From Paenibacillus qinlingensis (GTDB lineage: Bacteria; Bacillota; Bacilli; Paenibacillales; NBRC-103111), in contig NZ_JABMKY010000038.1 of assembly GCF_013204845.1 (NCBI RefSeq), positions 1 to 64,000 on the forward strand: 64,000 nt of DNA, read 5' to 3'. Below, piece after piece: positions 33,809-60,461 of the stretch; the stretch's first letter is position 1; every line of letters starts with the position of its first letter. Both the position numbers and the translations under genes were made by a program. Under the pieces are notes generated by a model. It saw nothing but the letters and a program-made list of their open reading frames with translations. It was not told the origin of the DNA and made no database searches.

Positions 33809-33916
33809 TCAACCCACAATATTTTGAATAGAACGAAGGCACTCATCAATAACATTATCGCTATCATATAATCTTTCTTTCTGAGGCTGGGTATCGTGGA
33901 TTTTAATTGTGCTCAT
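33809..33916 (-). CDS. Small peptide (35 aa)
   Basis: A 35-residue frame (MSTIKIHDTQPQKERLYDSD, then NVIDECLRSIQNIVG) with a strong ribosome binding site (GAGGGGGG, 8 bases before ATG) and a stable hairpin right after it. It is hydrophilic, with one Cys at residue 27 and no signal peptide. It stands as its own transcription unit between the HAD gene and the SIS gene. Function unknown. Confidence 0.5.
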   Translation of the reverse strand: MSTIKIHDTQPQKERLYDSDNVIDECLRSIQNIVG

Positions 33917-34008
33917 TCCATATCCCCCCTCAAATTAATGCTTAATATATGGAATATAGTACCATAATTAGCGTGTCAATCACCACCTAATCTCCTGTAA
34001 ATGTGATG

Positions 34009-34036
34009 AAGGCTGCCGGTCATACCGGCAGCCTCT
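34009..34036 (-). terminator. Terminator-like stem after the SIS gene
   Basis: Stem AGGCTGCCGGT paired with ACCGGCAGCCT around a 3-4 base loop, 22 bases past the stop codon. The T run is weak. Confidence 0.6.
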
Positions 34037-34057
34037 TTCACAGTGTTATTTATACAA

Positions 34058-34816: not shown

Positions 34817-34867
34817 GAATGATTGACCTACTTTCACATTTTTAAATTCATCCAGACACGTAGTTGG

Positions 34868-35620: not shown

Positions 35621-35642
35621 GAATGCATCTCCTCAGACTTCT

Positions 35643-38659: not shown

Positions 38660-38690
38660 ATCCTTACACTCCCTTTGTATAGATGTTATC

Positions 38691-38730
38691 TAAGAGCCAA
38701 ACAATGTGAAATACCATCATTTGGCTCTTA
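38691..38730 (-). terminator. Terminator between the beta-helix gene and the ceramidase-like operon
   Basis: Stem TAAGAGCCAAA paired with TTTGGCTCTTA around an 18-base loop. Only about 30 bases separate it from the ceramidase-like start, which leaves little room for a separate promoter, so partial read-through is likely. Confidence 0.6.
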
Positions 38731-38747
38731 CATGTTGACGCTAGGTA

Positions 38748-40868: not shown

Positions 40869-40898
40869 ACTGATCACTCCCCTTCTAATGAATACGTA

Positions 40899-43823: not shown

Positions 43824-43861
43824 GTTTACACTCCTTCTACTTTTGGAATTAACGATCACTC

Positions 43862-43909
43862 CTATACTGTAGAAATCATTCTAGCTGTGTAAATAATGGG
43901 GCTGTTCAT
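43862..43909 (-). CDS. Possible 15-residue upstream peptide
   Basis: Between the aldolase and beta-helix genes, GAAGGAGGTGAG precedes an ATG followed by 15 codons and TAG. The ribosome binding site is the strongest in this stretch. It could be a leader peptide coupling translation to the beta-helix gene, or chance. Confidence 0.3.
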   Translation of the reverse strand: MNSPIIYTARMISTV

Positions 43910-43954
43910 CTCACCTCCTTCAGCTACTAAGCAAGGGGCCGCTGCTTTTCTTTA

Positions 43955-44836
43955 TCATTTCAATTGTTTCAATCCAGCTTCATAGCCTAACATAACTTCC
44001 TGAATTCTTCGTTCATTGGCATTGATGAGTGGAAGCCTTGTTTCTGGGGAAGAGAAAATCCCCAAGTGGTACAGCAATGCTTTCGATGTGGGAATCTCGT
44101 CACCGGGACCAAACATGGAGATGAATGGTAGGATAACTTCCGTATAGAGCTTAAAGCTTTCACTCCGATTCCCGCTACAATACAGATCCCAACAATCACG
44201 AAACTCCTTCGGATAAATAATGGGTGCGATGATCATATTTCCGTCTACACCCGCTTCAAAGGCTCTAAAACAGATAATGTCATCTCCGCCGAAAACAATG
44301 AGATTCGATTGCTCTTTTAATTTGCGAATTTTTGCAAAAGCATGGTCGGTCATTTTGATTGCTTTGACAGATGGGATGGTTTGCGCAAGATGCAAAAGCT
44401 CATCCGCTGTAAATCGAGTACCTGTCGTCGTTGGATTATCGTAGAATACAATATCTAAACCTGTAAGATTCGCGAGCTTCCCCACATACTCCTCAACCAT
44501 GTCTAGCGAATTCGGAAAATAGTAAGGACTTGGAACCAACGCAGCTTTAACACCAGCATGAGCTGCTGCTTTGCCGATTTCTACGGCTTCTGCTATATTC
44601 GTGTGGCCGAGGCCAACCACAATCTCTTTCCCTGATGGAACTTTCTTCACTATATAATCCACGATCTGAATGCGTTCATCTTTGGATAAAGCCGGAGCTT
44701 CGCCTGTACTTCCGCAAACTACGTATCCGTCCAATGAATTTGCAGTATGTTCTATTAATCTATCAAAATCTTTAAAAAATACGTTGCCGTCAACAAACGG
44801 CGTTGGTATAACCGGTATATTTCCCCGTAAGCTCAT
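43955..44836 (-). CDS. DapA/NanA-type lyase (DHDPS/N-acetylneuraminate lyase superfamily)
   Basis: A 293-residue TIM-barrel enzyme. CGSTGEAPALSKDER (41-55) is the carboxylate-binding GST-E block. Tyr132 (VFYDNP) and the Schiff-base Lys161 (KAIKMTD) are present. The superfamily cleaves or makes a pyruvate C-C bond. In this place, behind a sugar-type importer, it is more likely an aldolase for a 2-keto-3-deoxy sugar acid than DapA. It follows the second permease gene by 44 bases. Confidence 0.85.
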   Translation of the reverse strand: MSLRGNIPVIPTPFVDGNVFFKDFDRLIEHTANSLDGYVVCGSTGEAPALSKDERIQIVDYIVKKVPSGKEIVVGLGHTNIAEAVEIGKAAAHAGVKAALVPSPYYFPNSLDMVEEYVGKLANLTGLDIVFYDNPTTTGTRFTADELLHLAQTIPSVKAIKMTDHAFAKIRKLKEQSNLIVFGGDDIICFRAFEAGVDGNMIIAPIIYPKEFRDCWDLYCSGNRSESFKLYTEVILPFISMFGPGDEIPTSKALLYHLGIFSSPETRLPLINANERRIQEVMLGYEAGLKQLK

Positions 44837-44880: not shown

Positions 44881-45756
44881 TTACTCTTTAATCGCGCCAA
44901 TCATAACGCCTTTAACAAAAAACTTCTGCAAGTAGGGGTATAAGATCAAAATTGGCCCTGTAGCGACGATAATCGTTGCATACTTAATAGTCATGGCCAC
45001 CTCCAACTTATTCCCTCCCGAATTAGCTGTCATATTGTCTGTACTGTTACTTATTAGAATTTCTCTGAGGATCAGTTGCAACGGATAATGCTCGCGATCT
45101 CTCATATAAATGAGTGCGTTAAACCAAGAATTCCAATGCGCAACACCATAAAATAAAAACATTACCGCTACAACAGGCAGCGAAAGCGGAATCATGACCC
45201 GCCATAAAATGACAAAATCATTCGCGCCTTCTAAACGAGCCGATTCCTCTAAGCTTACGGGCACAGCCTGAAAGGCCGTTCTCATAATGATCAGGTTGAA
45301 TGCGCTCATGGCTACAGGAAAAATCAGCGACCACAAACTATCCAACATGCCAAGTCCATTCACAAGCATATAGGTCGGAATCAATCCCCCATTGAAGAAC
45401 ATCGTGAAAACGATCATAAACATGATCGGATTTTTCAACATGACGTTATTTCTGGATAAGGCGTAAGCGCCAAAGGAAGTCATAATCAGATTCAGCAACG
45501 TGCCAACGATCACAACGAACAATGTGTTGAGATAACCGGAAATAATAATGGGATTATGGAATACAGCCTTATACGATTCCAGATTGATACCATGAGGCCA
45601 CCAAATCATACCTCTGGTCTGGGCGATCCAGCCTGGATCACTAAATGAAGCGACTAATACGTACCAAAACGGATAAAACGTAGCAAACATAAGCAATAAC
45701 ATAAAGAAGATATTGCTGCTATCAAAAATACGCTCCCCTGCTGACCGTTTATTCAT
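44881..45756 (-). CDS. ABC transporter permease, carbohydrate type (LplC/YtcP-like)
   Basis: About 291 residues. The start at 45756 gives GGAGG the proper spacing; the in-frame ATG at 45765 is too close. Six TM helices are seen, with the EAA loop EESARLEGANDFVILWRVMIP, which contacts the ATPase. It is the second permease of the importer. No ATPase gene is in the locus; such systems borrow a shared MsmX-type ATPase. It is followed by the aldolase gene. Confidence 0.9.
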   Translation of the reverse strand: MNKRSAGERIFDSSNIFFMLLLMFATFYPFWYVLVASFSDPGWIAQTRGMIWWPHGINLESYKAVFHNPIIISGYLNTLFVVIVGTLLNLIMTSFGAYALSRNNVMLKNPIMFMIVFTMFFNGGLIPTYMLVNGLGMLDSLWSLIFPVAMSAFNLIIMRTAFQAVPVSLEESARLEGANDFVILWRVMIPLSLPVVAVMFLFYGVAHWNSWFNALIYMRDREHYPLQLILREILISNSTDNMTANSGGNKLEVAMTIKYATIIVATGPILILYPYLQKFFVKGVMIGAIKE

Positions 45757-45774
45757 GTGACGCATACCTCCTGC

Positions 45775-46734
45775 TTACCACAGCTTTGTTTCCGTTATCC
45801 TCTTGCTTAAGGAGTTCGCTAGCACTAATAAAATAAAATTAATCACTGAATTAAATAAACCTATCGCAGCGCTGTAGCTGAAACTCGCCTCCAGTATTCC
45901 TTTACGGTATACATAGGTTCCGATAACATCCGCTGTGTTATAAGTAGCTGTATTGTACATGAGCAATATTTTATCGCTGTTAATCGACATGAGATTGCCA
46001 ATTTGTAAAATCAATAAAATAAGAATGGTTGGCATGATACCAGGCAACGTAATATGAACGACTTGCTTGAAACGATTCGCTCCGTCCACTTTTGCTGCTT
46101 CATAGAGTGCAGGATCAATGTTGGCCATCGCTGCCAAATAGATAATCGTGCCCCATCCTATGTTTTGCCAAATGCCTGAAGAAATGAATAACGTACGAAA
46201 CCACCCGGATTCACTTAAATAGGCTAACTTTTCTAAGCCAAACAAAGCCATGACGTTGTTGATCAGTCCATCTCTTGCCAAGAAATCAACCATGAGACCT
46301 ACTACAACGACAAGTGATATAAAATAGGGCAAATAGGTAATGCTTTGAACAATACGTTTAAATAGAGCACTGCGAAGTTCATTAAGAAGCAAAGCCAATA
46401 CAATTGGCGCACTAAATCCGAAGGTGAGATCATAAAGACTAAGGAGCAGTGTATTGCGGATCAATCTGCCAAAATAAAAGCTATGAAAAAATTCGTTGAA
46501 ATATTTAAAGCCAACCCACGGACTATGCCACATTCCAGTTCCAGGCGAATAGTTTTTAAAGGCAATTTGGATGCCATACATCGGGCCATAGTGGAATATG
46601 AGATAATAGAGCAGCACAGGTAAGATCATGATATAGATATAGCGATTTACTTTTAAATCCCGCTTCAACCTATAGCTAAATGTCATTCTATCCGCCTTTG
46701 TCAGGGCAGGAATTGGTTTGGAGATAAGCGGCAT
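45775..46734 (-). CDS. ABC transporter permease, carbohydrate type (LplB/YteP-like)
   Basis: A 319-residue membrane protein. GGAGG lies 8 bases before the ATG. The N-terminus is cytoplasmic, then six TM helices, with the EAA loop YEAAKVDGANRFKQVVHITLP. It opens with an LplB-like block (YIYIMILPVLLYYLIFHYGPMYGIQIAF) seen in oligosaccharide and lipo-oligosaccharide importers. Nine bases separate it from the next permease. Confidence 0.92.
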   Translation of the reverse strand: MPLISKPIPALTKADRMTFSYRLKRDLKVNRYIYIMILPVLLYYLIFHYGPMYGIQIAFKNYSPGTGMWHSPWVGFKYFNEFFHSFYFGRLIRNTLLLSLYDLTFGFSAPIVLALLLNELRSALFKRIVQSITYLPYFISLVVVVGLMVDFLARDGLINNVMALFGLEKLAYLSESGWFRTLFISSGIWQNIGWGTIIYLAAMANIDPALYEAAKVDGANRFKQVVHITLPGIMPTILILLILQIGNLMSINSDKILLMYNTATYNTADVIGTYVYRKGILEASFSYSAAIGLFNSVINFILLVLANSLSKRITETKLW

Positions 46735-46821: not shown

Positions 46822-48459
46822 TTATTTTTTCAAAAAGCGATCGTAAGCGTCTTGATTAAGTTTTATCGCTTCTTGAATCTTTAATTTGTTCAACGTTTGA
46901 ATGTATTCATCGAATTTGCTTAATGGCTCTGACCCCATAATGAACTTATTGTTCATTTCATTTTTATACGTATTTAAATCGGTCATAATGGTAGTAAACT
47001 TCGCTTGTTCATCTGCATTTAATAAGGAACCAGGCAATTGCTTCGAGTGATCGGCGTCAATCCATGTGGCCATGGCATCTGCTTGCTCCTTGTCGTTATG
47101 CCATTGTTTGTCAGCTTCTGGGTCGGTGATGAAAGGCCCCCCTGAAGTTTCTAACGAATAGATGGACAAGGCTTGAGAAACAGATAATTTATTCGGATTT
47201 TTTAGAATGGTATCGGTATATTGCGGTTTTCCGCTAACAAGGGAATAACTTTGACCCTCTACACCGAAATTGTACATGAGCGCTCCTTCTTTGCTGTATC
47301 CGTAATCCAGCCATGCGGCTATTTGTTCTGGATTTTTGGCTGTTGCAGATATCGCAGCGCCTCTGCCGTCAATTGCCACACCAACCGTGGATACAGGTTT
47401 ACCACCCCCAGCAATAGTTGGGAAAGGCACTCCGATGAGTTTGAAATTGGGTTCTTTATCTCGTTTTAATTGCATGAAGGCGCCAAGACTGCTTCCTACC
47501 CAACCTGCCATTGAGCCAAGTTGATTATCTAACATCTTGCCATCTCTTATTTTGGCATCTGATGTTAAATAATCTTTGTCAATCAGTCCTGCTTTGTACC
47601 AGTTGTTCATTAAAGTTAGGAAATCCTTGTACTTCGGCTGTGCAGGACCGTACTTCACAACCCCGCCCTCTTGATAGAATCCTGTTGTAAGGCCATAAGC
47701 TCCAAGAAACGGATAACTACTTTCCATATCCGTTTGTCTGTAGAAGAATGGAATCTCATCCTTTTTGCCATTCCCGTTGGGATCCCCGTCTCGGAAGGCG
47801 ATCAATACTTTCTCCCATTCTTCGATCGTTTTAGGAGGCTGTAAATTCAATTTGTCTAACCAATCCTTACGAATCATTAAGCCATGATACACAAATACCT
47901 GAGGATCACTTCCAATAGAAGGAAATGCATAAATATTCCCATCGTCACTTGTTATTGATTTCCTGATATTTGGATTGTCCTTCAAATACTTGGATAAATT
48001 CGGGGCGTTCTTCTCAATGAGTTCGTTCAAACGGAGAATTCTGCCATCCTTGATGGCTTTGTCTGGAAAATTCACCGACCACTGGTTATAGATCACATCT
48101 GGCAGTTTCCCCGTGGCCATCATCAAATTAAATTGGTCTTTTACTTGCGCTTCACCGGCAGGGGGATGTTGAAATTCCACTTTGGTACCGGTGACCTTTT
48201 CCAATTGTTTGTACAATCCCATTTCACTGTAATTCTTGATCGAAACTGCCGCATCCGTATTCATTACCGTCCAATAAGTCAATGAGGCAGGGTATTTGGG
48301 TCCTGTGCTTGGGGCCACTGATGCTGATGGTATTGCGCTTACTTTAGCGGGGCTAGTCTCGTTAGTACCCGTGCTGTCGGTGTTACTGCAGGCGATGGTT
48401 AAGCTGCCCAGCATGGATACCGACAGCAGTGTCACCCCTAGTTTCTTCCTAATTTTCAT
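46822..48459 (-). CDS. Extracellular solute-binding lipoprotein (LplA/YtcQ-like), paralogue 1
   Basis: A 545-residue protein with lipobox LTIAC (Cys24) and a low-complexity linker after it. A family-1 solute-binding fold (residues 60-545) shows LNELIEKNAPNLSKYL, GDPNGNGKKDEIPF (a calcium-like loop seen in large oligosaccharide binders) and GSMAGWVGSSLG. GGAGG lies 9 bases before the ATG. The promoter 62 bases upstream carries the shared AAGTAA/ATGGATTATAT element. It delivers an oligosaccharide or acylated sugar to the permeases that follow. Confidence 0.92.
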   Translation of the reverse strand: MKIRKKLGVTLLSVSMLGSLTIACSNTDSTGTNETSPAKVSAIPSASVAPSTGPKYPASLTYWTVMNTDAAVSIKNYSEMGLYKQLEKVTGTKVEFQHPPAGEAQVKDQFNLMMATGKLPDVIYNQWSVNFPDKAIKDGRILRLNELIEKNAPNLSKYLKDNPNIRKSITSDDGNIYAFPSIGSDPQVFVYHGLMIRKDWLDKLNLQPPKTIEEWEKVLIAFRDGDPNGNGKKDEIPFFYRQTDMESSYPFLGAYGLTTGFYQEGGVVKYGPAQPKYKDFLTLMNNWYKAGLIDKDYLTSDAKIRDGKMLDNQLGSMAGWVGSSLGAFMQLKRDKEPNFKLIGVPFPTIAGGGKPVSTVGVAIDGRGAAISATAKNPEQIAAWLDYGYSKEGALMYNFGVEGQSYSLVSGKPQYTDTILKNPNKLSVSQALSIYSLETSGGPFITDPEADKQWHNDKEQADAMATWIDADHSKQLPGSLLNADEQAKFTTIMTDLNTYKNEMNNKFIMGSEPLSKFDEYIQTLNKLKIQEAIKLNQDAYDRFLKK

Positions 48460-48520
48460 CGTGCATAACCTCCCTTTTCATACGCTTTTCGTTATGAATC
48501 CGCCTATCGGCTTACCATAA

Positions 48521-48584
48521 CTATATAAAGGGTGCTTGCCAATCGGATATAATCCATAATATATATTCGCTATCTGGTTTACTT
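48521..48584 (-). promoter_or_regulatory. Conserved regulon promoter element, copy 1
   Basis: On the minus strand: AAGTAAACCAGAT, then 14 bases, ATGGATTATAT, a CG, then CACCC and TTTATATA. It aligns with 50017-50079 and 60324-60387. The upstream part probably binds the AraC-type sensor encoded at 51787; the TTTATATA box may be the -10 region. It serves the binding protein/importer operon. Confidence 0.7.
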
Positions 48585-48608
48585 CATCAGCGTTATCCGT
48601 TTTAATCG

Positions 48609-49961
48609 TTACTGTTCTTTTTTACCTATTGGGGCAGTTTGGAGCAACTGAACACCTGCATCCCGAATTAAACTTTCTATTTCAGGTACAAATGGGCTCG
48701 GTAAACCAAAATAATAGATAGAATCCCTCGATTCGTAACCCCCCTCTTCAATTTGCTTAGCCGTAGGGACGTAACCAACCATCCCATTACTGTAGGCTAG
48801 AGGAAGTACTCCTCGACTAGGATCACATTTCTTGAAGAACAATCCATACTCGACTACGATTTCTCCATTCATCGCTAGAAACGTAAGACCCTCTGCAATC
48901 GTTAAGAGGTTCATCTTTAATGGAATATGAACAGCGTTTCGTTTCGCATTCTCAAGCAGCATGCGATGCCATGCCCCCATCATCCCCTGCTCGAAGCTCC
49001 CCGTTTGCAGTTGATCGATGGTTGGATTGTACTGGAATGGCAGGTTAACTTCCGTAGTACTTGCATGGATCCAGCTAGGGGATAGCTCTTCCATCGGACG
49101 CTTCAATACGTGCAGGACAACATCGGATAATTGCTTCCCGAATCGCTGGACATCACGGTCATCTCCTCTAAAGAACACATCCTCCTGGATCAATGCAGGA
49201 CGAATATCACCGCAACACCCCTGTAAATACGAAGCAATAGCCCCGCCGCCAATCGCTTCTTCCACACAACCCATCGCGATGCCTGGAAATTCGGAAGATA
49301 TGAAATTATAGTCTGTTGTTGTAGGGTGACACGTGTAGTGAAACATAACTCCCATCGTTTCATTCGTAAGCTTGCTGCAAAAACGGATTACGCTGACCTC
49401 TGGATCGATAGGTCCTTCTAAATTTGGAGCCATGGACATCTCGCCATTTACGATTTTGCGACGGTTAATACCCATACGGCATTCACCAACCCCCTTTTCG
49501 ATGGTAACTGGAATCAGCTTGCAATAAGCTTCTTCAACCCCTGCAAACAAACGTTCCTCCAACATGTCTACATAGTCGGGATTTAATGCATCCAGCAAGT
49601 CCGCGGTTCTGGGTCCACAATGGGTGTGACTGGCGTTCAGAATGATCGAAGAGGCGGTCAGTCCATAGTACGCTTCAAGTCGCTTATAGATGGCCCCCAT
49701 CCTTTCCGTACTCCAGGCAAGAATATCCGCTTGTACAACTAAAGCTTTTCTTTGCATGTCAGAGACATCCATTTGTTGAAAAAACCAAACTCTCAGTTGC
49801 AGTGGATGAAGAATCCCATCAAAATCACCATGTCTATGACCAAATCCAGATAATGCCATGGGTTGTTGAGGTGTAATATTGAGCTTGGCTATTCCTAGTG
49901 AGATATCCGAACCGACAGCCGCGGCTGCTTCCACAAGTAATGTATCCGCTTTCCATTTCAT
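48609..49961 (-). CDS. Neutral/alkaline ceramidase-like amidohydrolase (paralogue 2)
   Basis: A 450-residue cytoplasmic protein, paralogous to the one at 37304. Key blocks are LNASHTHCGPRT (metal His), HYTCHPTTTDYNFISSEFPG and ASYLQGCCGDIRPA. The ATG follows GGAGG by 10 bases. It is transcribed alone, under the second copy of the shared promoter element, and followed by the importer operon. Having two such enzymes in one locus suggests two related amide substrates or two steps. Confidence 0.85.
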   Translation of the reverse strand: MKWKADTLLVEAAAAVGSDISLGIAKLNITPQQPMALSGFGHRHGDFDGILHPLQLRVWFFQQMDVSDMQRKALVVQADILAWSTERMGAIYKRLEAYYGLTASSIILNASHTHCGPRTADLLDALNPDYVDMLEERLFAGVEEAYCKLIPVTIEKGVGECRMGINRRKIVNGEMSMAPNLEGPIDPEVSVIRFCSKLTNETMGVMFHYTCHPTTTDYNFISSEFPGIAMGCVEEAIGGGAIASYLQGCCGDIRPALIQEDVFFRGDDRDVQRFGKQLSDVVLHVLKRPMEELSPSWIHASTTEVNLPFQYNPTIDQLQTGSFEQGMMGAWHRMLLENAKRNAVHIPLKMNLLTIAEGLTFLAMNGEIVVEYGLFFKKCDPSRGVLPLAYSNGMVGYVPTAKQIEEGGYESRDSIYYFGLPSPFVPEIESLIRDAGVQLLQTAPIGKKEQ

Positions 49962-50016
49962 ACTTATTAAACCTCCAATTATTCCTATGATTTAACTAAA
50001 CCTTAGCTTCTATTTA

Positions 50017-50079
50017 GTATATAAAGGGGATTCACTCTCGCATATAATCCATATTTCATGTGGATGATCTGGATTACTT
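50017..50079 (-). promoter_or_regulatory. Conserved regulon promoter element, copy 2
   Basis: On the minus strand: AAGTAATCCAGAT, 14 bases, ATGGATTATAT, CG, then CCCC and TTTATATA. It keeps the same order as copy 1, with one base less between CG and the TTTATATA box. It is 55 bases before the second ceramidase-like start. Confidence 0.7.
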
Positions 50080-50099
50080 ATTACGTGAGAAAACAAAAA

Positions 50100-50121
50100 T
50101 AGACCTTCGGAAGAAGGTCTA
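50100..50121 (-). terminator. Intrinsic terminator of the regulator/binding-protein operon
   Basis: Stem TAGACCTTC paired with GAAGGTCTA and a short loop. It is followed by a T-rich run on the minus strand, 38 bases beyond the binding-protein stop. Confidence 0.75.
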
Positions 50122-50158
50122 GGTTACAACATTTTCAAATCTCCGAACATCGAAGTCA

Positions 50159-51763
50159 TCACTTCTTCAAATATCGGTCATAAGCAGCTTGATTAAGCTT
50201 TATTGCATCTTCCATCTTTAATTTGGTCAATGTATGCAAATACTGTTCAAACTGGACTAAGGGCTCCACACCCATAATAAACTTATCGACCATGTCATTT
50301 TTATAGGTCGTTAAATCGGACATGATCGAGGCATATTTCTGTTGTTCTTCCGCATTCATCCATATGTTCGGCAGCTCTTTGGAGTGGTCTGCTTGAATCC
50401 ATTTGTTCATAGCCTCTGCTTGTTCAGCATCAGCATGCCATTGTTTGTCGGCAACTGGGTCAGACGCGAATGGGCCACTTGACGTTTGGAGCGAATACAT
50501 GGAGAGAGCTTGAGAAACAGACAGATTTTTTGGGTTTTTCAAAATAAGATCCGTATATTGTGGTTTACCATTTATCAAAGTATAGCTTTCGCCTTCTACG
50601 CCAAAATTGTACAAGATTGAACCTTCTTTGCTGTAACCGAAATCCAGCCATGCCGCAATTTGTTTCGGATTTTTGGCAGCTGTGGAAATCGCTGCACCAT
50701 GGCCAGTAATTAATGGAACATCCTTCGATAACGCTTTACCGCCGACTTTAAGCGTCGGAAAAGACACGCCAACCAGCTTGAATTGGGGCTCTTTGTCTTT
50801 CATAATCTGCATGTAGGTGCCAAGATTGCTTCCCACCCAACCTGCCATAGATCCAAGCTGATTATCCAACATCTTGCCATCTCTAATTTTGTTATCCGAA
50901 GTTAAATAATCGCGATCAATCAAGCCTGCCTTGTACCATTTGTTCATGAGTGTCAGGAAATCCTTAAATTGCGGTTCTGCGGGGCCATACTTGACAACAC
51001 CGCCATCTTGAAAGAAACCAGGTGTAATTCCAAATGCACCAATAAATGGGTAACTGTTTTCCATATCGGTCTTTCTATAATAGAACGGAATTTCATCCTT
51101 CTTGCCGTTCTTGTTTGGATCCCCGTCTCGAAAAGCTGTCAGTACCTTCTCCCACTCGTCAATCGTGGAAGGCAGCTGCAAATGTAATACATCCAACCAA
51201 TCCTTGCGCAGCATTAGACCATGATAGGCAAATATTGGTGGATCGTCTGCGATATAAGGAAAAGCATAAATATTTCCTTCGTCTGTCGTAATTTCTTTTT
51301 TCAGATACGGTTTGTCATGAAGTAATTTGGAAAGGTTGGGGGCATATTGATCGATAATTTCATTTAAGCGAAGAATCTTACCGTCTTTGATCGCTTTATC
51401 CGGGGAATTTGACAACCAATTGGTAGAGATAACATCTGGAAGTTTACCTGCAGCCATCATCATATTGAATTGATCTTGTGTTTGGGTTTCCCCAGCTGGT
51501 GGATGATAAAATTCGACTTTGGTTCCTGTCATCTTCTCTAACTGTTTGTATAGTCCCATTTCGCCATTACTTTTAATTGTAACAGCCGCATCCGTATCCA
51601 TAGCTACCCAATACGTTAATGAGGGAGGGTACACACTTTCCTTTGCATTAACGGTCTCACTCACAGCCAATTTGTCGGTACTTTCACGACAGGCTGTGTT
51701 AAGGCTAACCAGCATGGAAACCGCTAGAAGAACAGCTAACCTTTTCCGCTTACCAAGTATCAT
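50159..51763 (-). CDS. Extracellular solute-binding lipoprotein, paralogue 2
   Basis: A 534-residue lipoprotein (lipobox LNTAC, Cys25), very similar to the protein at 46822 over its whole length (for example GDPNKNGKKDEIPF and GSMAGWVGSNLG). It has no permeases of its own, so it either shares those at 44881-46734 or acts as a partner of the sensor encoded just upstream. It is 23 bases downstream of the sensor gene, within one operon. Confidence 0.9.
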   Translation of the reverse strand: MILGKRKRLAVLLAVSMLVSLNTACRESTDKLAVSETVNAKESVYPPSLTYWVAMDTDAAVTIKSNGEMGLYKQLEKMTGTKVEFYHPPAGETQTQDQFNMMMAAGKLPDVISTNWLSNSPDKAIKDGKILRLNEIIDQYAPNLSKLLHDKPYLKKEITTDEGNIYAFPYIADDPPIFAYHGLMLRKDWLDVLHLQLPSTIDEWEKVLTAFRDGDPNKNGKKDEIPFYYRKTDMENSYPFIGAFGITPGFFQDGGVVKYGPAEPQFKDFLTLMNKWYKAGLIDRDYLTSDNKIRDGKMLDNQLGSMAGWVGSNLGTYMQIMKDKEPQFKLVGVSFPTLKVGGKALSKDVPLITGHGAAISTAAKNPKQIAAWLDFGYSKEGSILYNFGVEGESYTLINGKPQYTDLILKNPKNLSVSQALSMYSLQTSSGPFASDPVADKQWHADAEQAEAMNKWIQADHSKELPNIWMNAEEQQKYASIMSDLTTYKNDMVDKFIMGVEPLVQFEQYLHTLTKLKMEDAIKLNQAAYDRYLKK

Positions 51764-51786
51764 AGCACGTCCCCCCTCATTAATAG

Positions 51787-54099
51787 TTAACGATCCAGCA
51801 TTTCGCGGTACTTTCCTGGTGGAACTCCTTCGACTTTTTTGAAAAAACGAATAAAGCTGACGGCGTTTGCATAGCCGATTTTTATAGCAATATCACCCAT
51901 AGTCGCTTTTGGATCGGCTAATAATTTTTTAGCTTCCCGAATGCGGACAATCGCAATGTAGTCTGTTATATTTTCACCGCTATGTTTTTTAAAGAAGGTC
52001 GAGAGGTACTGTAAGCTGATTTGGAAATGATCCGCCATAGCGGCTAAACTCATGTTGTTATCATTATAATGATCGTCGATATACTGTCGTATCCGGACAT
52101 ATAGCCGATCCCCGTGATCGGTCTTTTCTGCCTTGGTGAATTTACATATAATCCGGTACATGTCCTTCGTCTTCTCAATCATTTCTTCCGCCGTGGAACA
52201 TTCGGCAATGACCTTAGCTGGATCGACAGAGCTTTCAAATTGCTTCTTGTCCGTGATTTGCAAGCCATTCATCACTTTCACAATCGTACTGAGCAGATCG
52301 ATGAACAAGAACTTACCCATTTCCGGTGATATGCCGTTTGATATAAAGTTCGCTTGGTAAATTTGATCCAGCAGTCTTTCGGCATTCGCATAATCGCCGC
52401 TTTTGGCATAATTCATCAGTTGTACTTCATCTTCGAGAGGGTAATGATAATAATGGGATTCAAGGTCAGTAATGTCTTCATGATAAATCACCGCGTGGGA
52501 TCCTTTAATCAAACGGTAGTCAAGTGCAATTAAGGCCTCTCGGTAGCATCGACCAATATCTTCCAAACCCTGATGAAACTGGCTAATTGCAATCGAAATT
52601 TTCAATTTAAATCGTTGACTCGCCACTCTTTGCAAGTTTTCAATGAATGCTGCTCTCTCCAAATACGTATGCTCTTCAGGCTTGCTGTTATTTTGTAAAA
52701 TGGCCAGCCGGGTGCGGTCCATCTCTACGATATATCCTTCCATACCCAACAAATCACTGCTTAAATTGGTCAAGACAAACCTCACATGAGCCCATTCCTG
52801 CTCTGTATCTTCCTTAATGAACTCACGGCAATCCTCAATTTCGAGAATCATCACGCCAAAATAGTCATGCTCGAAATGAATACCCATAAAATGAAAGGAA
52901 TCATTACTTAAAGCTGTTGCTTCAACGTGTCCTTTAATGAGTCTGGACAGGAAATTGGCCTGAATAACTGGAGCATGCTGTGTCAATGTTTGCTTCAAAT
53001 TGTTATTTTCACCCAAGGAGTGAATAATCGACTGTTTAATGTAATCAAACTCGTTATCGATATCCTCCCGTTTATGTATATTTCCTTGCATAATCGTTCT
53101 TACCACATCACGAATCGGCGTATAATTTCGGTAGGCCATAATATAGGAAGCGACAATGCCTGCAACCAAAATTAAAAAAAGCAGTGCTAAAGCTACATTC
53201 TTCACAGTGAGGACCTGCTCCAACACGATTTGCTTTGGTAGCACAGAGACGTACTTCCAGCCATTCTGTCCAGTTGTGTAAGAAAGCATCATCTCTTGTC
53301 CATTTTGCGTGAACGTATGATCAAACCCGTTATCATCCCCGAGCATAGCCATCAAATCTGTGTTTAAGAGTTGATGCTTAGCGGTAGACATAATAATTTG
53401 TTGATGGTCGTCTATGATATAAATAGAACTATTGTTCACTTTCTCGACTTGTTTGATTAAACGGTCAAATTCCTGTTCGTTAATTAAAATGACCAAATAG
53501 CCCTTCACATTCACCTCTTCACCAAGCGGCAATGATTGGACGTAAGTTATCACATTGCTAATTCTTTCCCCTTCTTTAATGGTCGTAACAGGTAAATACG
53601 TTTTGAAATGATTGCCTGTAAACATTTTGTTCAAAGCCCAGTCACTGCTTTGTTCATTGTAGACAAGTATTTTATTAAAATAGAAGGATGAATCTGACTT
53701 GCCAGATGGCGTTAATACCGTATCCGTATTTTTGAAGTATACCAAAAAATCACTTACAAAGCTGCTTGCTTTGTTAACGTTTCTAAAGTCCTTCATGATG
53801 TCGGCTAGATCAAACTGATTTCTAGTATAGTCACTTTCAAAGTTACTTAACGCCCACTGAAGCTTCGGATTAAATGCAATCTGGACGGTCATCGTATCGA
53901 TTTCATTAAATCGATTCTCCGCAACCAACTTGATTTGCTCCAGAAGCCCCATGTTCGTGCGGTTTGCATTATCTACCATAATCGTCTCGACCCGTTGGTA
54001 TAAATAGCCTCCAATGGCCACGGGAAATAAAAGAATGGCAATATATGAAATAAGGTTTGTAATAAATATACTCTTTCTACGGTTAGCCCTTCGCAACAT
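51787..54099 (-). CDS. Membrane-bound AraC-family sensor-regulator (YesN/Cache type)
   Basis: About 770 residues (TTG 54105 is another possible start). TM1 at 10-32, an extracellular Cache-like sensor at 35-295, TM2 at about 297-320, a cytoplasmic linker with a coiled region and a GGDEF-like or YesN core (400-650), and a C-terminal AraC HTH pair (MSLAAMADHFQISLQYLSTFFKKHSGENITDYI, then MGDIAIKIGYANAVSFIRFFKKVEG). Such one-component proteins sense an extracellular sugar or a loaded binding protein and activate import genes. It is the best candidate to bind the three promoter elements. Confidence 0.9.
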   Translation of the reverse strand: MLRRANRRKSIFITNLISYIAILLFPVAIGGYLYQRVETIMVDNANRTNMGLLEQIKLVAENRFNEIDTMTVQIAFNPKLQWALSNFESDYTRNQFDLADIMKDFRNVNKASSFVSDFLVYFKNTDTVLTPSGKSDSSFYFNKILVYNEQSSDWALNKMFTGNHFKTYLPVTTIKEGERISNVITYVQSLPLGEEVNVKGYLVILINEQEFDRLIKQVEKVNNSSIYIIDDHQQIIMSTAKHQLLNTDLMAMLGDDNGFDHTFTQNGQEMMLSYTTGQNGWKYVSVLPKQIVLEQVLTVKNVALALLFLILVAGIVASYIMAYRNYTPIRDVVRTIMQGNIHKREDIDNEFDYIKQSIIHSLGENNNLKQTLTQHAPVIQANFLSRLIKGHVEATALSNDSFHFMGIHFEHDYFGVMILEIEDCREFIKEDTEQEWAHVRFVLTNLSSDLLGMEGYIVEMDRTRLAILQNNSKPEEHTYLERAAFIENLQRVASQRFKLKISIAISQFHQGLEDIGRCYREALIALDYRLIKGSHAVIYHEDITDLESHYYHYPLEDEVQLMNYAKSGDYANAERLLDQIYQANFISNGISPEMGKFLFIDLLSTIVKVMNGLQITDKKQFESSVDPAKVIAECSTAEEMIEKTKDMYRIICKFTKAEKTDHGDRLYVRIRQYIDDHYNDNNMSLAAMADHFQISLQYLSTFFKKHSGENITDYIAIVRIREAKKLLADPKATMGDIAIKIGYANAVSFIRFFKKVEGVPPGKYREMLDR

Positions 54100-54262
54100 G
54101 TTCAAATCTCATCCCACCCTTTACTGAGATTACATGCTAATCGACCTATTCGACCTATTCGACGACGAACGAAGTTAACCCTTCTAGATAATCAAATAAA
54201 ATGGAATCTATTAGGCGATCATCTCTCTAATTTAGTGATTTAGGAAGTCCATTTTCTCCCTG

Positions 54263-55597
54263 TCACTTTTTTTTATACAAACTCCAATCACCTAAGTCCA
54301 AGGCATTTCCTTGATCTTCTGCTAACAGCTCCCGATAATTACCAGCAGCCTTTCGAAAAGCATTGGCATAGGCTTCTATGACTTCTGGTCTGAAATGCTT
54401 AAACCATGGAATGCTGAATACTTTTTCCGCGATTCTTTCACTAACTGGCAGTAGGTTATCGAGCGGCCTAACGTCTCTAGCTGCATTTGCAATTCGAGTC
54501 GGCATGCCGTGTCCATACACGTCGGCGTCTTGTAACAAAAGATGCAGATGCAGCGGGCGGTTGCAACCGGGATTGCATTCTCCCACACCTTCCGCGCGCA
54601 CAGCTTCACAAAAACGGGAAATTGACAATCCCCCAAGCTCTTCTGCCTTATAATGACCATGTGCAGCATACCAGCCTCCCATATATATGTCAGAGCCTTT
54701 CTCTGGTCGATGCGCACGAATACCGGGAACATCCTCGAGAAGATCCCAGAAATAATTCATGGATCGGCTAATTTCGGCATGTCTTTCATCGTAATGCTTA
54801 AGCTGCACGCGCCCTACTGCTGAGCTGATCTGATGCATCCGGTACTTGTAGCCACCCATAGGAAGGCCCTTATACGGCTGTAAATCAGGACTCTCTATGT
54901 CTTTATTGAATCGCTCATAATGCCCGAGAACAAGTGCCCGTTCATAGATGGATCTATCATTCGTGACCAACATACCGCCTTCGCCAACAGCCAAAGCCTT
55001 GCCTGCCATTAGCGACATTGCCCCTACATGACCGATGGTTCCCAGCTTACGTCCTTTATATAATCCACCATGGGCATGCGAAACATCTTCAATCACCTTA
55101 AGATTATGTTTGTGAGCTATTCCCATAATGGCATCCATGTCAGCGGGATGACCGAGGTAGTGGACGACCATAATGGCTTTTGTTCGCTCGCTGATTCGGT
55201 GCTCAATATCGTTCGGATCCAGACAAAGCGTGACCGGATCGATATCAGCAAAAACAACCGTCGCACTTAATGAAAAAGCCTGTAAGGCAGATCCCCAATA
55301 TGTGATGCTCGGACCTATAATCTCATCCCCAACACCAAGTCCACAACCATACATGGCAGCCTGCAGCGAGGCAGTACCATTGTTGAACGCAAGTGCATAT
55401 GTTACATCCAGCCAATTCGTGAAATCATCTTCAAATTGTCGAGTAATCTCTGTTCCTGACATTGCACCTCTTCTTAGTACCCCAAGTGCAGCCTCTTCAT
55501 CTTCCTCTGTTATGATGGGCCATGTAAACATATTTCCCGGATTTTCAGTGACAGCTTTATTTCCTCCCAGTAGTGCAAGCTTCTCCTTGTTACTCAT
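54263..55597 (-). CDS. DegT/DnrJ/EryC1/StrS-family PLP aminotransferase
   Basis: About 444 residues. The start at 55597 (MSNKEKLALLGG) follows GGGGGAG. FNNGTASLQAAMYGCGLGVGDEI (71-93) is the PLP phosphate site, VIEDVSHAHGG (168-178) has the PLP ring Asp171, and Lys200 in MAGKALAVGEGG is the Schiff-base lysine. The branch resembles AHBA synthase and scyllo-inosose aminotransferases. It is the last gene of the six-gene operon and is followed by the sensor gene 160 bases away. Confidence 0.88.
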   Translation of the reverse strand: MSNKEKLALLGGNKAVTENPGNMFTWPIITEEDEEAALGVLRRGAMSGTEITRQFEDDFTNWLDVTYALAFNNGTASLQAAMYGCGLGVGDEIIGPSITYWGSALQAFSLSATVVFADIDPVTLCLDPNDIEHRISERTKAIMVVHYLGHPADMDAIMGIAHKHNLKVIEDVSHAHGGLYKGRKLGTIGHVGAMSLMAGKALAVGEGGMLVTNDRSIYERALVLGHYERFNKDIESPDLQPYKGLPMGGYKYRMHQISSAVGRVQLKHYDERHAEISRSMNYFWDLLEDVPGIRAHRPEKGSDIYMGGWYAAHGHYKAEELGGLSISRFCEAVRAEGVGECNPGCNRPLHLHLLLQDADVYGHGMPTRIANAARDVRPLDNLLPVSERIAEKVFSIPWFKHFRPEVIEAYANAFRKAAGNYRELLAEDQGNALDLGDWSLYKKK

Positions 55598-55670
55598 CGC
55601 ACCCGTTCTCCCCCTCTTCCATTTATAAGACACGTACAATTTGAAAAGAATGATCACTTTTCTAACATTT

Positions 55671-56045
55671 CTAAGGAAGCTTAGCAATGACATCAATCTC
55701 AACCAAAATATCGCCTAAGCCTCCGGAAAAACAAGTTCTTGCAGGATAAGGTTTGTCAAAGAAACTTTTATAAGTCGTATTAAATCGCTCGAAATCCCTC
55801 ATATCAGATAAAATAACCGTCACTTTAACTACATGATCTGTCGTGCAATGCGCAGCATGCAAAATTTGGAGTATGTTCTTCAAAGTAAAATGGGTTTGCT
55901 CTTCAATATCCGTACCTAGTATCTCCCCTGTTAGCGGATCCAAAGGACCTTGACCGGAAATAAAGAGAAAACCTCCTGATGTTACAGCCTGCGAATAAGG
56001 ACCATCACCTTTTGATGCGTTTGCAGTCTCCACAACTTTTCTCAT
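55671..56045 (-). CDS. RidA family enamine/imine deaminase (YjgF/Rid)
   Basis: About 124 residues. The start at 56045 follows GGGAGAG. GPYSQAV (around 14-20), FISGQGPLDPLTGEI and a C-terminal PARTCFSGGL with the substrate-binding Arg match active Rid proteins. It hydrolyses reactive imine or enamine intermediates from PLP enzymes, in line with its place beside DegT and the aldolase-like gene. Confidence 0.9.
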   Translation of the reverse strand: MRKVVETANASKGDGPYSQAVTSGGFLFISGQGPLDPLTGEILGTDIEEQTHFTLKNILQILHAAHCTTDHVVKVTVILSDMRDFERFNTTYKSFFDKPYPARTCFSGGLGDILVEIDVIAKLP

Positions 56046-56073
56046 TCGAACTCTCCCTTCTTCCCTCTTCAAT

Positions 56074-57099
56074 TTATGGATACAACAGGACTTTAGCCAC
56101 TTTGCCCGGGTTTCCTAATAACTTATCAAACCATTTACCGCCTTCTTCAAGCGGTGCTTCGACAATCCAATTCTCATTCAAATGAAAATACCCCGCAGCA
56201 AGCCACTTCTGAGCTGTCTGAAAATTGATAGCCGAATAGGCAAAGGATCCTACACAAGTAATTTCGCTGCGAATTAACGAATTGACCTGTAACAGCGATT
56301 CTGCTTCGTGAAGCCCGGTACATATAACCTTGCCACCAGGTGCAGTACTTTCGATGCATTGACGGCGTGTTTGAACTGATCCTACGGCGTCGATGGCCAC
56401 CTGAACACCCCATCCATTTGTAAGGGTTGGGATCTCCCTTGCAATATCAACCTCTGTTGCATGCAGTGCTGTTGCTCCTAGTGCTTCGGCCATTTGCAGC
56501 CTTTCCCGATGCAAATCAACCGCAATAATATCTTTGATACCATAAACCCGCAGTGCTTGCAGTACAAATAAACCGATTGGGCCCATCCCCACAATTAAGA
56601 CATGATCTCCTGGCTTAGCAGCTGCTAATTCTGCTACACGCACACTGCAAGCAATCGGCTCGGTCAGCGCCCCTTGCTGAAAAGTGAGATGATCCTGGAG
56701 CGGGTATACGCAAGAAGCAGGCACTTTCACATAGGTAGCATTACTTCCTGGCAGCGCTGCACTTAATAATTGGCGACTTGCACATAATTGTTGTTGACCC
56801 TTTAAGCAATACATACAGTTTCCGCAGGTTACGAGTGGATTTGCCGTTACCCGTTGTCCGGATTGTAGTGCGAATCTTTCCTTCACCCGTTCGCTTAACT
56901 GTACAATTTTGCCCGAAAATTCATGTCCGAAGATCTGCGGAGGTTTACGGAGTGCATTATGACCCAAATATCCACTAAGTTCTGAACCGCAAATGCCAGA
57001 GAATGCAACCTCAATCAATACTTCTTCATCGTTAGGTACCGGTAATTCAACTTCTCTTATTTGCATATCACGAGGACCTTCATAAACCAATGCTTTCAC
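56074..57099 (-). CDS. Zinc-dependent medium-chain dehydrogenase (sorbitol/threonine dehydrogenase type)
   Basis: A 341-residue enzyme; GTG start after AGGA. Catalytic zinc ligands are in CGICGSELSGY (Cys) and FGHEFSGK (His-Glu). The structural zinc site is CGNCMYCLKGQQQLC, and the GMGPIGLFVLQALR loop binds NAD(P). It oxidises a secondary alcohol, for example a sugar or a beta-hydroxy amino acid. It sits 28 bases upstream of the RidA gene. Confidence 0.9.
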   Translation of the reverse strand: MKALVYEGPRDMQIREVELPVPNDEEVLIEVAFSGICGSELSGYLGHNALRKPPQIFGHEFSGKIVQLSERVKERFALQSGQRVTANPLVTCGNCMYCLKGQQQLCASRQLLSAALPGSNATYVKVPASCVYPLQDHLTFQQGALTEPIACSVRVAELAAAKPGDHVLIVGMGPIGLFVLQALRVYGIKDIIAVDLHRERLQMAEALGATALHATEVDIAREIPTLTNGWGVQVAIDAVGSVQTRRQCIESTAPGGKVICTGLHEAESLLQVNSLIRSEITCVGSFAYSAINFQTAQKWLAAGYFHLNENWIVEAPLEEGGKWFDKLLGNPGKVAKVLLYP

Positions 57100-57118
57100 G
57101 GATTACCATTCCTACCTT

Positions 57119-57781
57119 CTATGAATTAGTAATGACCTCATCTAAAAATACAGCTCTACATGGTGTTCCACAAACGTCTGAAATAGGAAGCGGTAGTGCA
57201 ATCAAAGTCCCGGGTCCTTTACCAGTCTTCCTTAAACCAACTAGCGGTGCAAGCAGCAGACGATCCTTGGCAAAAAACAACCGGTTCAGTGCATTGTCAT
57301 CCATCCTTGGATCTTGCACGCTGGGTATATCCAAGCCCAGTAATCCGACATCCTTCTCGATCACCCATTCCATCACTTCCGGCAAAAAGAACGGGCATCC
57401 TCGCACAAAATCTTCGTGCCCCCATAATTGATCCCATCCTGTTGCGATCAGCAGCGCATCACCAGGTTTAAAATCAGCACTAACTGCTCGATTCAACTCA
57501 TCGGCTGTTATCTTTCCCCATTTTTCTTTCTCCGTAAGTTGAGCGACCCATGCTTTCTTAATGAAGCGGTCTACGGATACTTCAGCAATCGTTTCGCGTC
57601 CTGGAAACAAATGATCTGCCGTTTCCAGATAGGTGCCTGTAAGTGTATGCAGATGAAGAAGATGACCACTCCAACCTACCGTTTCCAGACTAGCCAACGG
57701 CTCTACACGTACGTCAGGTAATGGAGATCCATAGCTCCACATGCCATTGTAGATGGGACCGCTTAAATCAAGGACTCGCAC
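57119..57781 (-). CDS. Cyclase-family metal-dependent hydrolase (kynurenine formamidase-like)
   Basis: About 220 residues. GTG 57781 is chosen because AAAGGAGG lies 9 bases upstream. The segment HTLTGTYLETADHLFPG corresponds to HxGTHxDxPxH of the cyclase family; the central His is Tyr and the Asp is Glu, which defines a separate subfamily. GDALLIATGWDQLWG and LLGLDIPSVQDPR follow the usual order. It probably hydrolyses a lactone, cyclic imide or N-formyl group. The deviating metal site makes the reaction uncertain. Confidence 0.8.
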   Translation of the reverse strand: MRVLDLSGPIYNGMWSYGSPLPDVRVEPLASLETVGWSGHLLHLHTLTGTYLETADHLFPGRETIAEVSVDRFIKKAWVAQLTEKEKWGKITADELNRAVSADFKPGDALLIATGWDQLWGHEDFVRGCPFFLPEVMEWVIEKDVGLLGLDIPSVQDPRMDDNALNRLFFAKDRLLLAPLVGLRKTGKGPGTLIALPLPISDVCGTPCRAVFLDEVITNS

Positions 57782-57851
57782 GAGACATTTCCTCCTTTGC
57801 CCAGTAAAGATCATCATGAAATGGCGAATTCAGCAACTCCATTTATGAATA

Positions 57852-58955
57852 TCACCTTACTTTTCCCCTACCCTGAATGTTCCAAATGGCTTCCACTTCT
57901 TCGTGACGTATTGCTGCTGCTTCATCAAACATATTAATAACACCGCAGCAATGTACGGGAATGATCTCCAGGGTTTGCCCCACTGCAAGATCCCTTGCTT
58001 CTTCTGGCAGGTACAATATCCCGTGCTCCTCCGTAAACCAGGAAACGATAATGCCCGGATGTCCCACTACGTATCCTCTGCCCGTCCCTATTGGCGAATC
58101 TTCACCATCCATTGTGAATACCTTCGTACCTGCATCAATAACCGCCCGATCTGCTGCGGGTCTGGAGACGATTGTAGTTTTCACGGTCAATGCGCAATCT
58201 GCCAGACGATGTGACCCCAAGCTCACTTGCATTAAATCACCAAATAGATACGTACCTGGACGAATTTCTGTGATTCCATTCATATGATTGGCGAAGCGCG
58301 CGGTAGGTGTAGATCCGCCGCTTACCACATCTGCTCGTAAGCCGTTGTTGATGAGCAATTTCGCGGTTCTACGCGCTGCATTTCCTTCGGAAATCGCAAT
58401 CTGCTCTATTTCAAATACATCCTTGGCATCGTAGGAGTGCCCTGCAAAGGTGATTATGCCACGAAAGACAAGACCAGGGAGTGCGGCAATCTGTTTCGCC
58501 AGATCCAAGACGGGCTGACCTTCCGGAACGCCAACACGTCCAAAGCCGCAATCCATTTCCACAAGTACATCCACAGAAATACCTGGTTCTTGCAGGAAAG
58601 CGAGCGAAACTTCGCGTGCTACAACCAGACTATCGACCGCAATCGTTAGATCAACTGTTTGGGCTAAGCAACGCAATCGGTTCAGCTTTTGTTCCCCTAC
58701 GATGGGATAAGCTATAAAAATATTTTGTATCCCAGCTGCAGCCATAACCTCCGCTTCTCCAATTTTAGCCACGGTTATGCCAATAGCTCCTGCTGCGATC
58801 TGTTTAATCGCCAGTTCAGGAATTTTATGAGTCTTAGCATGAGGCCGCAATACAATTCCGGCACGATTAGCAATTTGCTGCATATCCGCTATATTTTTTT
58901 CAACCTTTTCCAAATCGATCAGAATATAGGGTGTATCCAGATCCTGTTTATTCAT
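57852..58955 (-). CDS. D-threonine aldolase/D-serine dehydratase-like PLP enzyme (DSD1 family)
   Basis: About 367 residues. The start at 58955 follows GAGGGGGG and overlaps the previous stop by 8 bases. The alanine racemase-type barrel carries Lys41 in RPHAKTHK, the PLP lysine. The C-terminal IPVHCCGVINMF gives the metal-binding His and Cys. These enzymes act on D-beta-hydroxy amino acids, either cleaving them to glycine and an aldehyde or dehydrating them. Confidence 0.88.
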   Translation of the reverse strand: MNKQDLDTPYILIDLEKVEKNIADMQQIANRAGIVLRPHAKTHKIPELAIKQIAAGAIGITVAKIGEAEVMAAAGIQNIFIAYPIVGEQKLNRLRCLAQTVDLTIAVDSLVVAREVSLAFLQEPGISVDVLVEMDCGFGRVGVPEGQPVLDLAKQIAALPGLVFRGIITFAGHSYDAKDVFEIEQIAISEGNAARRTAKLLINNGLRADVVSGGSTPTARFANHMNGITEIRPGTYLFGDLMQVSLGSHRLADCALTVKTTIVSRPAADRAVIDAGTKVFTMDGEDSPIGTGRGYVVGHPGIIVSWFTEEHGILYLPEEARDLAVGQTLEIIPVHCCGVINMFDEAAAIRHEEVEAIWNIQGRGKVR

Positions 58956-60252
58956 CTTGTCCCCCCTCTTCTGCAATTCCGCACCAATTCAGAATTGTAA
59001 GCACGTAGATTTCAATCAATTGAAAGAATTGTGGAATGTCGATATACTCATCGGGTGCATGCGCGTTCCCCCCGGATGGTCCCATTACGATAGCGGGAGT
59101 TGTACTATGCAGATTGAACATAAACGCATCGCAGGCAAAAGGTGCTCCTGCCTTAATCGCTGCCGTCCCTGTTACTTCTTCCATGTGATATGCCAACATA
59201 TCGATGAGGGGAAAACCAGCGTCTACCTCACATCCCGGCAGGAATCGTATCATTTTGGTAAATTCCGGCTCTTGCCATTCGCTATATGAATTAGCGTACA
59301 TCTGACTGAAACCCGTCAACAGATCTTGTTGCAACTGCTTCTCCGTCATGTGCGGATGACACTCTACCCATATATCAACATGACAAGTTGTCGGACCACT
59401 GTCACATAACGGTGCAGATAGATCACCTGCCTCAAGTCGAGTAACGATCACGCTAAGAGAGCGATCCTCTTCGAACCAAGGCTGCGGACCTGCTTTGTCT
59501 CTGGCTGCGATTTCATAGGCTTCAAGAAAGACAATGAACTTAGCTGCCATCAATGCAGGATTCATGATTTTCTCTCCACTAAAGGACATGCCTGTGTTTC
59601 CTTTAAATGTAACTCGCCACAAGGCTCCGCCTCTTGTACCTGGGCATACGGCCATATTGGTCGGTTCAGGTATGATCGCCGCGTCCGGATTATAACCCTT
59701 GAGCCGGCTGGCCAACGTTCCGTTCGCGCCGCCAAATTCTTCATCCACAACAGATTCCACCCATAAATCACCTTGTAGTTGAATCCCAAGTTCACGAATA
59801 CAACGAACTGCCATGACAGATGCAGATAGACCACCCTTCATATCAAAGGTGCCCAGTCCATATAGCTTCCCCTCGCTTACCTCTGGCGTCCAGGGGTCAC
59901 GATTCCAACCAGGAGCAGCTACGGTTGTATCGATGTGACTTGAAAATAGAAGCGATTTCCCTTCGCCCTTTCCATTCATTACCGCTACAACATTCGGTCT
60001 GTCCGTGTAGTCTTTCCCAGGGAAAAAGGCTTCATGTTCGCGAAACCGTGGTACATCTTCTGGAGAAAATACATCGACATTCATTTCCATATCGCGTAAA
60101 TACTGAGCAAGAAATAGTTGGCACTCTTTTTCCGAACCGTGTGTTACTTCATTAACTGTGTTAAATCTCACTAAATCTTGTACAAAATCAAGTATAATTC
60201 CCTTGTTTTTATCCAACCAAATTCGGATGCTTTCACTCCATGTATGCCTCAT
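58948..60252 (-). CDS. M20-family amidohydrolase (ArgE/DapE-like deacylase)
   Basis: About 434 residues. The start at 60252 is favoured because the longer frame (ATG 60360) lies within the conserved promoter element; GGGGGA precedes it. SSHIDTTVAAPG gives the first metal His-Asp, GTFDMKGG the bridging Asp, DEEFGGANG the catalytic Glu pair and EPTNMAVCPG the next ligand region. It removes an N-acyl group from an amino acid or peptide. First gene of a six-gene operon. Confidence 0.9.
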   Translation of the reverse strand: MRHTWSESIRIWLDKNKGIILDFVQDLVRFNTVNEVTHGSEKECQLFLAQYLRDMEMNVDVFSPEDVPRFREHEAFFPGKDYTDRPNVVAVMNGKGEGKSLLFSSHIDTTVAAPGWNRDPWTPEVSEGKLYGLGTFDMKGGLSASVMAVRCIRELGIQLQGDLWVESVVDEEFGGANGTLASRLKGYNPDAAIIPEPTNMAVCPGTRGGALWRVTFKGNTGMSFSGEKIMNPALMAAKFIVFLEAYEIAARDKAGPQPWFEEDRSLSVIVTRLEAGDLSAPLCDSGPTTCHVDIWVECHPHMTEKQLQQDLLTGFSQMYANSYSEWQEPEFTKMIRFLPGCEVDAGFPLIDMLAYHMEEVTGTAAIKAGAPFACDAFMFNLHSTTPAIVMGPSGGNAHAPDEYIDIPQFFQLIEIYVLTILNWCGIAEEGGQDE

Positions 60253-60323
60253 TTTCATGTCCCCCGACAATATTCTTTTCATCTTAAACCGTAATGAATC
60301 TTGGAAGAATTTACTTAGGCTTA

Positions 60324-60387
60324 ATATATAAGAGCGTTCATCAAACCGTACATAGTCCATTTTATAGATGGATCAACCTATTTACTT
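60324..60387 (-). promoter_or_regulatory. Conserved regulon promoter element, copy 3
   Basis: On the minus strand: AAGTAAATAGGTT, 14 bases, ATGGACTATGT, CG, and TTATATA with the same spacing as copy 1 over 64 bases. The match to copies 1 and 2 is weaker in the CAGAT half but keeps ATGGA, TAT, CG and TTATATA in register. It lies 71 bases before the M20 start. Confidence 0.6.
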
Positions 60388-60407: not shown

Positions 60408-60461
60408 AAAAAAAGCTAATTGGCATATTAATCGCGATTAATATGCCAATTAGCTTTTTTT
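60408..60461. terminator. 54-bp perfect palindrome, bidirectional terminator
   Basis: Arms of 27 bases with no mismatch (core GCTAATTGGCATATTAAT then CGCG), flanked by A and T runs. It separates the VOC gene at 60628 from the six-gene operon. The length and perfect symmetry are unusual for a simple terminator. Confidence 0.8.

Follow-up and report, generated by a model that had tools for sequence, protein, structure and literature searches.

The minus strand of this sugar import and catabolism locus carries three similar stretches upstream of separate transcription units, which raises two questions: whether they are copies of one regulatory site, and which regulator reads them. The first-pass annotation had described a shared promoter element and had assigned its upstream part to the membrane-bound AraC sensor encoded at 51787. 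The window (the whole stretch of DNA analysed, 64,000 nucleotides) makes up nearly the entire contig C31 (64006 bases); any long-range regulon member lying on an adjacent contig would look unlinked, and none was found genome-wide.

Three copies of one promoter element

Reading the window sequence confirmed the three stretches at 48521-48584, 50017-50079 and 60324-60387 of the minus strand (copies 1, 2 and 3, respectively; Table 1). The element is about 64 bp long; copy 1 precedes the importer operon, copy 2 the second ceramidase-like gene and copy 3 the M20-led operon, a layout that joins transport and catabolic operons as proposed. Read 5' to 3', the copies are as follows: AAGTAAACCAGAT...ATGGATTATATCCG...TATAGT (copy 1, before the binding-protein gene), AAGTAATCCAGAT...ATGGATTATATGCG...TATACT (copy 2) and AAGTAAATAGGTT...ATGGACTATGTACG...TATATT (copy 3). 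The start of the M20 gene was taken as the ATG at 60252, behind GGGGG; the start of the longest M20 open reading frame, an ATG inside the element (60360), was judged unlikely.

Aligned in register, all copies have AAGTAA, ATGGAYTATRT, CG and TTATATA-T in common, and they lie about 61, 55 and 72 bases before their start codons (copies 1, 2 and 3), near the 55-71 bases given earlier. The best ungapped triple alignment contained 23 invariant columns out of 45, and 60 dinucleotide shuffles of the same upstream regions gave a mean of 14.5 (sd 0.87, maximum 17; Z about 10). The pattern ATGGAYTATRTNCG-N6-16-TTATATA was scanned against the 8.9-Mb genome of the strain and matched exactly three times; since the pattern had been derived from these copies, the count shows rarity and no more. 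All matches were in this locus, with none at unrelated sites, and the reversed control pattern gave 0 matches.

Table 1. Positions of the promoter element copies, the neighbouring genes and the terminator-like hairpins in the window
Feature	Position	Strand	Basis or remark
Copy 1 distal half-site GTAAACCAGATAG, importer operon	48570..48582	-	
Copy 1 proximal half-site ATATTATGGATTA	48550..48562	-	20 bp from distal
Copy 1 -10 hexamer TATAGT	48520..48525	-	
Copy 1 possible third half-site CGGATAACG (tentative)	48591..48599	-	offset 23 enriched in related promoters
Copy 2 distal half-site GTAATCCAGATCA, second ceramidase-like gene	50065..50077	-	
Copy 2 proximal half-site GAAATATGGATTA	50045..50057	-	
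Copy 2 -10 hexamer TATACT	50016..50021	-	
Copy 3 distal half-site GTAAATAGGTTGA, M20-led operon	60373..60385	-	
Copy 3 proximal half-site ATAAAATGGACTA	60353..60365	-	
Copy 3 -10 hexamer TATATT	60323..60328	-	
SBP1, solute-binding lipoprotein	46822..48459	-	first gene behind copy 1
Two ABC permease genes	44881..46734	-	
Likely rest of copy 1 unit: DHDPS/NanA-like, two beta-helix/DUF1565, ceramidase-like 1, GH3, SDR, SIS, HAD	33021..44836	-	co-transcription inferred
Ceramidase_alk-like protein 2	48609..49961	-	behind copy 2
Copy 3 unit: M20, D-threonine-aldolase-like, cyclase, Zn-dehydrogenase, RidA-like, DegT	54263..60252	-	
Membrane-bound AraC-type sensor/regulator, 772 aa, proposed element reader	51787..54105	-	Pfam, hydropathy, orthologs 74/57/56/54%
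SBP2, second solute-binding lipoprotein, without own permease genes	50159..51763	-	directly after araC
Intrinsic-terminator-like hairpin behind araC-SBP2	50100..50121	-	just before copy 2
Terminator-like hairpin, 20-bp AT-rich stem, T runs on either strand; probable bidirectional terminator	60411..60458	.	just before copy 3

Half-sites and promoter geometry

Each element contains two bipartite half-sites of 13 bases ([N]TAAW-n3-GGAYnA) in the same direction, 20 bp apart. Offset 20 was the single identity peak (mean 0.55, at most 0.37 elsewhere; permutation p 0.0016) in a test window that was widened after the alignment had been viewed, so that support for the repeat is good, not overwhelming; an earlier test on 12 columns from ATGGA was not significant (p 0.16), the half-site beginning five bases earlier. 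The CCAGAT motif noted in copies 1 and 2 is present there, but belongs to the distal half-site, which diverges in copy 3 (ATAGGTT). In copy 1, the conserved box ATGGATTATAT extends from the proximal half-site across the -35 region, and the possible third half-site lies 23 bp upstream of CAGATAGCG.

In every one of the eight copies collected from three genomes (see below) the -10 hexamer is TATAGT, TATACT, TATATT or TATAAT. The TTATATA box of the first-pass annotation, found in all copies, is therefore better read as this TATANT hexamer, which begins two bases further downstream. The boxes can be aligned as claimed, but the spacing from the proximal box to the -10 differs by one base, the ATG of the box lying 31-32 bases ahead of the hexamer in 8/8 copies (from the alignments). 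With the -10 set at -12 to -7, the box ATGGAYTATAT falls at about -43 to -33 and the proximal half-site at about -48 to -36. By inspection no recognisable -35 hexamer was seen at 17-base spacing (about 2/6 consensus bases), an absence suggesting that an activator is needed.

Promoters of the AraC tandem type have two half-sites in one orientation, separated by about two turns of the helix, the proximal one lying at the -35 region, where the hexamer is poor. In the araI arrangement the half-sites are likewise in tandem, the proximal one being at -35. The window promoters thus resemble AraC/XylS activator promoters (araI1-I2, XylS Pm) in having bipartite tandem half-sites at this distance and in the position of the proximal site over a poor -35, but differ in the half-site letters (TAAW-n3-GGAYnA), in the spacing (20, not 21) and in a regulator that spans the membrane and has an outside domain. 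PMC9722767 gives the XylS repeat as TGCA-N6-GGNTA. A promoter for an ECF or other alternative sigma factor was also considered and rejected: all copies have the TATANT -10, and the pattern matched only three times genome-wide.

Conservation in relatives and the proposed regulator

Orthologs of the AraC sensor were found in Paenibacillus flagellatus DXL2 (G037, 7.2-Mb genome; 74%), in G046 (two, 57% and 56%) and in further genomes (56, 54 and 52%). The cleanest test of conservation was a scan of the whole P. flagellatus genome with profile R2, which was built from the three window copies alone (sequence only), because no sequence of that genome entered the profile. Its two best matches were 70-base stretches, the first upstream of the importer gene ortholog (E 3.3e-6) and the second upstream of the araC ortholog (E 0.043). 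The boxes are kept there in a locus of 55% GC, versus 42% in the window. The element is thus conserved before the importer gene in P. flagellatus, which favours the first-pass proposal, and more weakly in G046, where R2 returned one site only, before the operon ending in araC (E 0.5).

Elements in G046 were located before the SBP1 gene, before another binding-protein gene and before this araC-ending operon. On contig 11 of that genome (L061, 2718-13428), the operon behind the element encodes a heparinase II/III-like protein, a DegT-type aminotransferase and a heparinase II/III-like protein with SLH domains, with araC last; this DegT-lyase-araC layout matches the M20...DegT-araC layout behind copy 3.

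Profile R1, built from the relatives' sites, ranked the window copies 1, 2 and 4 in their own genome, a recovery that is only partly independent since the relatives' sites had been chosen by likeness to the window core. The competitors were inside reading frames, and the extra R1 matches in C44, C57 and C33 were rejected as a fourth genomic copy for the same reason. Profile R3 was built from eight copies (three training genomes) and used to scan 104 family genomes with strict filters: the eight training sites scored 41-55 bits, matches elsewhere in the 104 genomes reached at most 20 bits, and no fourth copy appeared in the strain's own genome. Only the training genomes gave matches above 40 bits; they encode either this AraC or its orthologs (74%; 56-57%). 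For the AraC orthologs at 52-56% (G051, G089, G088) no strong element match was obtained, and the promoters in these genomes look diverged. A link of the element to the target gene families rather than to the regulator was discarded: homologs of ceramidase-like protein 2 and M20 elsewhere have no match. The araC transcription unit is headed by the element in the window, in P. flagellatus and in G046. One site is therefore found before several units and is conserved in orthologous loci, as in a regulon.

The sensor was assigned to the AraC/XylS family by HTH_18 at residues 690-768 (E 8e-20, above the Pfam cut-off), and the solved AraC, MarA and YesN domains match its DNA-binding region. Its order is TM 13-31, outside domain about 32-303, TM 304-322, GGDEF_2 and HTH_18; the two hydropathy peaks, from which alone the topology is taken, make it a membrane one-component sensor. 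Structure prediction from two sequences gave a mean pLDDT of 36, too low to be of use. The same domain order is found in B. subtilis YesS/YtdP and in the membrane AraC regulators of Paenibacillaceae. The window sensor resembles the latter in this order and in adjoining an importer operon, but in this locus a single regulator seems to act on three promoters, one of them heading its own unit. Among the papers searched, none gave a site for such a membrane AraC sensor.

Assignment of the element to this sensor is based on position, on the co-occurrence of strong matches with close orthologs only, on elements that head the araC unit in three species and on the geometry shared by related AraC promoters. 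The proposal that the sensor is the reader is supported by this evidence, but not its restriction to the upstream part: binding by the regulator probably extends to both halves, with contacts in the proximal box that adjoins and overlaps the -35 region. Taken together, the sequence comparisons make it likely that the membrane sensor encoded by araC activates transport, catabolism and its own gene, the element being its activator-dependent promoter.

A genuine regulatory site could instead be read by another regulator encoded elsewhere, for example a response regulator (a PAS-HisKA kinase gene is present at 31004) or another membrane AraC paralog, of which the genome has at least ten (at least 11 own-genome matches to this AraC have E 1e-60 or better). 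This is rather improbable: strong matches adjoin the gene of a close AraC ortholog and are confined to genomes that have one, the araC unit is headed by the element in three species, and the importer gene belonging to the closest paralog in the genome (43%) is preceded by a different box. The copies could also be remnants of duplicated promoters, for example from a duplication of the importer region, without present regulatory meaning. Duplication did happen in the locus (SBP1 and SBP2 are 69% identical), and the closest likeness is between copies 1 and 2; we nevertheless consider this explanation very unlikely, because identity among the three copies sits in the boxes (0.71, 0.76 and 0.85) and falls in the spacers (0.47 and 0.44) and flanks (0.25-0.37 for 60 bp upstream and 50 bp downstream, the chance level), so the copies are not a recent duplicate of a longer stretch, and because the boxes are kept in another species in a locus of 55% GC. 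Chance likeness of promoters sharing a common -10 motif in an AT-rich window (42% GC) is already refuted by the Z value, the three genome-wide matches and the blind recovery in a relative.

The geometry of the sensor-dependent promoters proposed here recurs in the wider AraC group. In a set of 18 of its promoters, which are not fully independent, direct repeats were enriched at offsets 20 (5 versus 0.56 expected) and 23 (4 versus 0.64), and also at 42/43, the sums of 20/23. The AraC clade at 42-45%, own-genome paralog included, has a different box (ACGGATTGTAGGC or ACGTATTGTAGGC), whose distance to the downstream -10 is again 31 bases in almost every promoter read; another box at an equal distance indicates that geometry is kept and that the letters change with the regulator. 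In G051 (L046), the region from araC to the importer gene that goes with the 54% ortholog holds three CGGATAA repeats with spacings of 20 and 22 bp, upstream of the importer gene. The corresponding regions of G033 (L053) and G040 (L047) contain arrays of CGGTT-type repeats, spaced by about 20-23 bp and likewise upstream of the importer gene, which look like additional half-sites of the related AraC group.

A wider reading, which we put forward tentatively and regard as doubtful, is that the promoters read by the many Paenibacillaceae membrane AraC sensors are built alike, with 20 or 23 bp separating the half-sites and TATANT following the proximal box at 31-32 bases, and that the half-site letters alone distinguish one sensor from the next, giving private, insulated regulons, with SBP2 presenting the ligand in this locus. 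If true, a DNA-recognition code could be read by matching helix-turn-helix residues against boxes. Membrane-spanning AraC sensors encoded next to sugar importers are numerous in Paenibacillaceae genomes, and a predicted site of fixed geometry offers a route to predicting the sites of others. The system itself appears fairly ordinary, with AraC-type tandem-site activation by a membrane sensor, a known mode in a previously undescribed regulon; the consistent geometry across related sensors lifts the case above routine. MsmR1 of Paenibacillus polymyxa, from the same bacterial family, is also an AraC/XylS-type regulator of carbohydrate genes but, according to PMC9722767, has an N-terminal domain of only about 140 aa and motifs without palindromic or inverted repeats.

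Transcription units and likely ligand

Hairpins resembling terminators precede copies 2 and 3 (Table 1), and a terminator-hairpin search found none between DegT and araC, so copy 3 can drive M20...DegT-araC-SBP2, which would constitute positive autoregulation. The element directly before araC in P. flagellatus and in the araC operon of G046 points to the same. A relic of the element before the window araC (AAAATGGAC near 54254) was too short to claim.

We infer the following mechanism, in which the three copies would act as activator-dependent promoters of one small local regulon. Both helix-turn-helices of the AraC domain would bind the half-sites, and RNA polymerase would be recruited once the outside domain senses its ligand. 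Copy 1 would switch on the importer, probably together with the ten-gene unit that follows; copy 2 would do so for the ceramidase-like hydrolase and copy 3 for the catabolic operon, probably with read-through into araC and SBP2. With a predicted site, a paired regulator and three target operons, the regulon is directly testable and offers a handle on the ligand.

The nearest solved relatives of SBP1 place it in a group with 5gub/5gx8 and AlgQ1/AlgQ2 (E 1e-73 to 1e-63). We take 5gub/5gx8 to be Smon0123, a protein of a glycosaminoglycan importer. Such an importer with Smon0123 has been described (PMC5430744). SBP1 is clearly related in sequence to the binding proteins of these importers, but the enzymes of the window locus differ from those of the alginate and heparin systems. 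For the GH3 protein the nearest NCBIfam model is beta-N-acetylhexosaminidase, below the cut-off. The locus also holds NanA/DapA-like and beta-helix proteins, and the regulon of G046 heparinase II/III-like proteins. These relationships suggest that the inducer is probably an acidic oligosaccharide, which may contain amino sugars. SBP2 may present the ligand to the sensor or may be a spare part of the importer. On contig 38 of G046, araC is likewise followed by a binding-protein gene without permease genes, as in the window.
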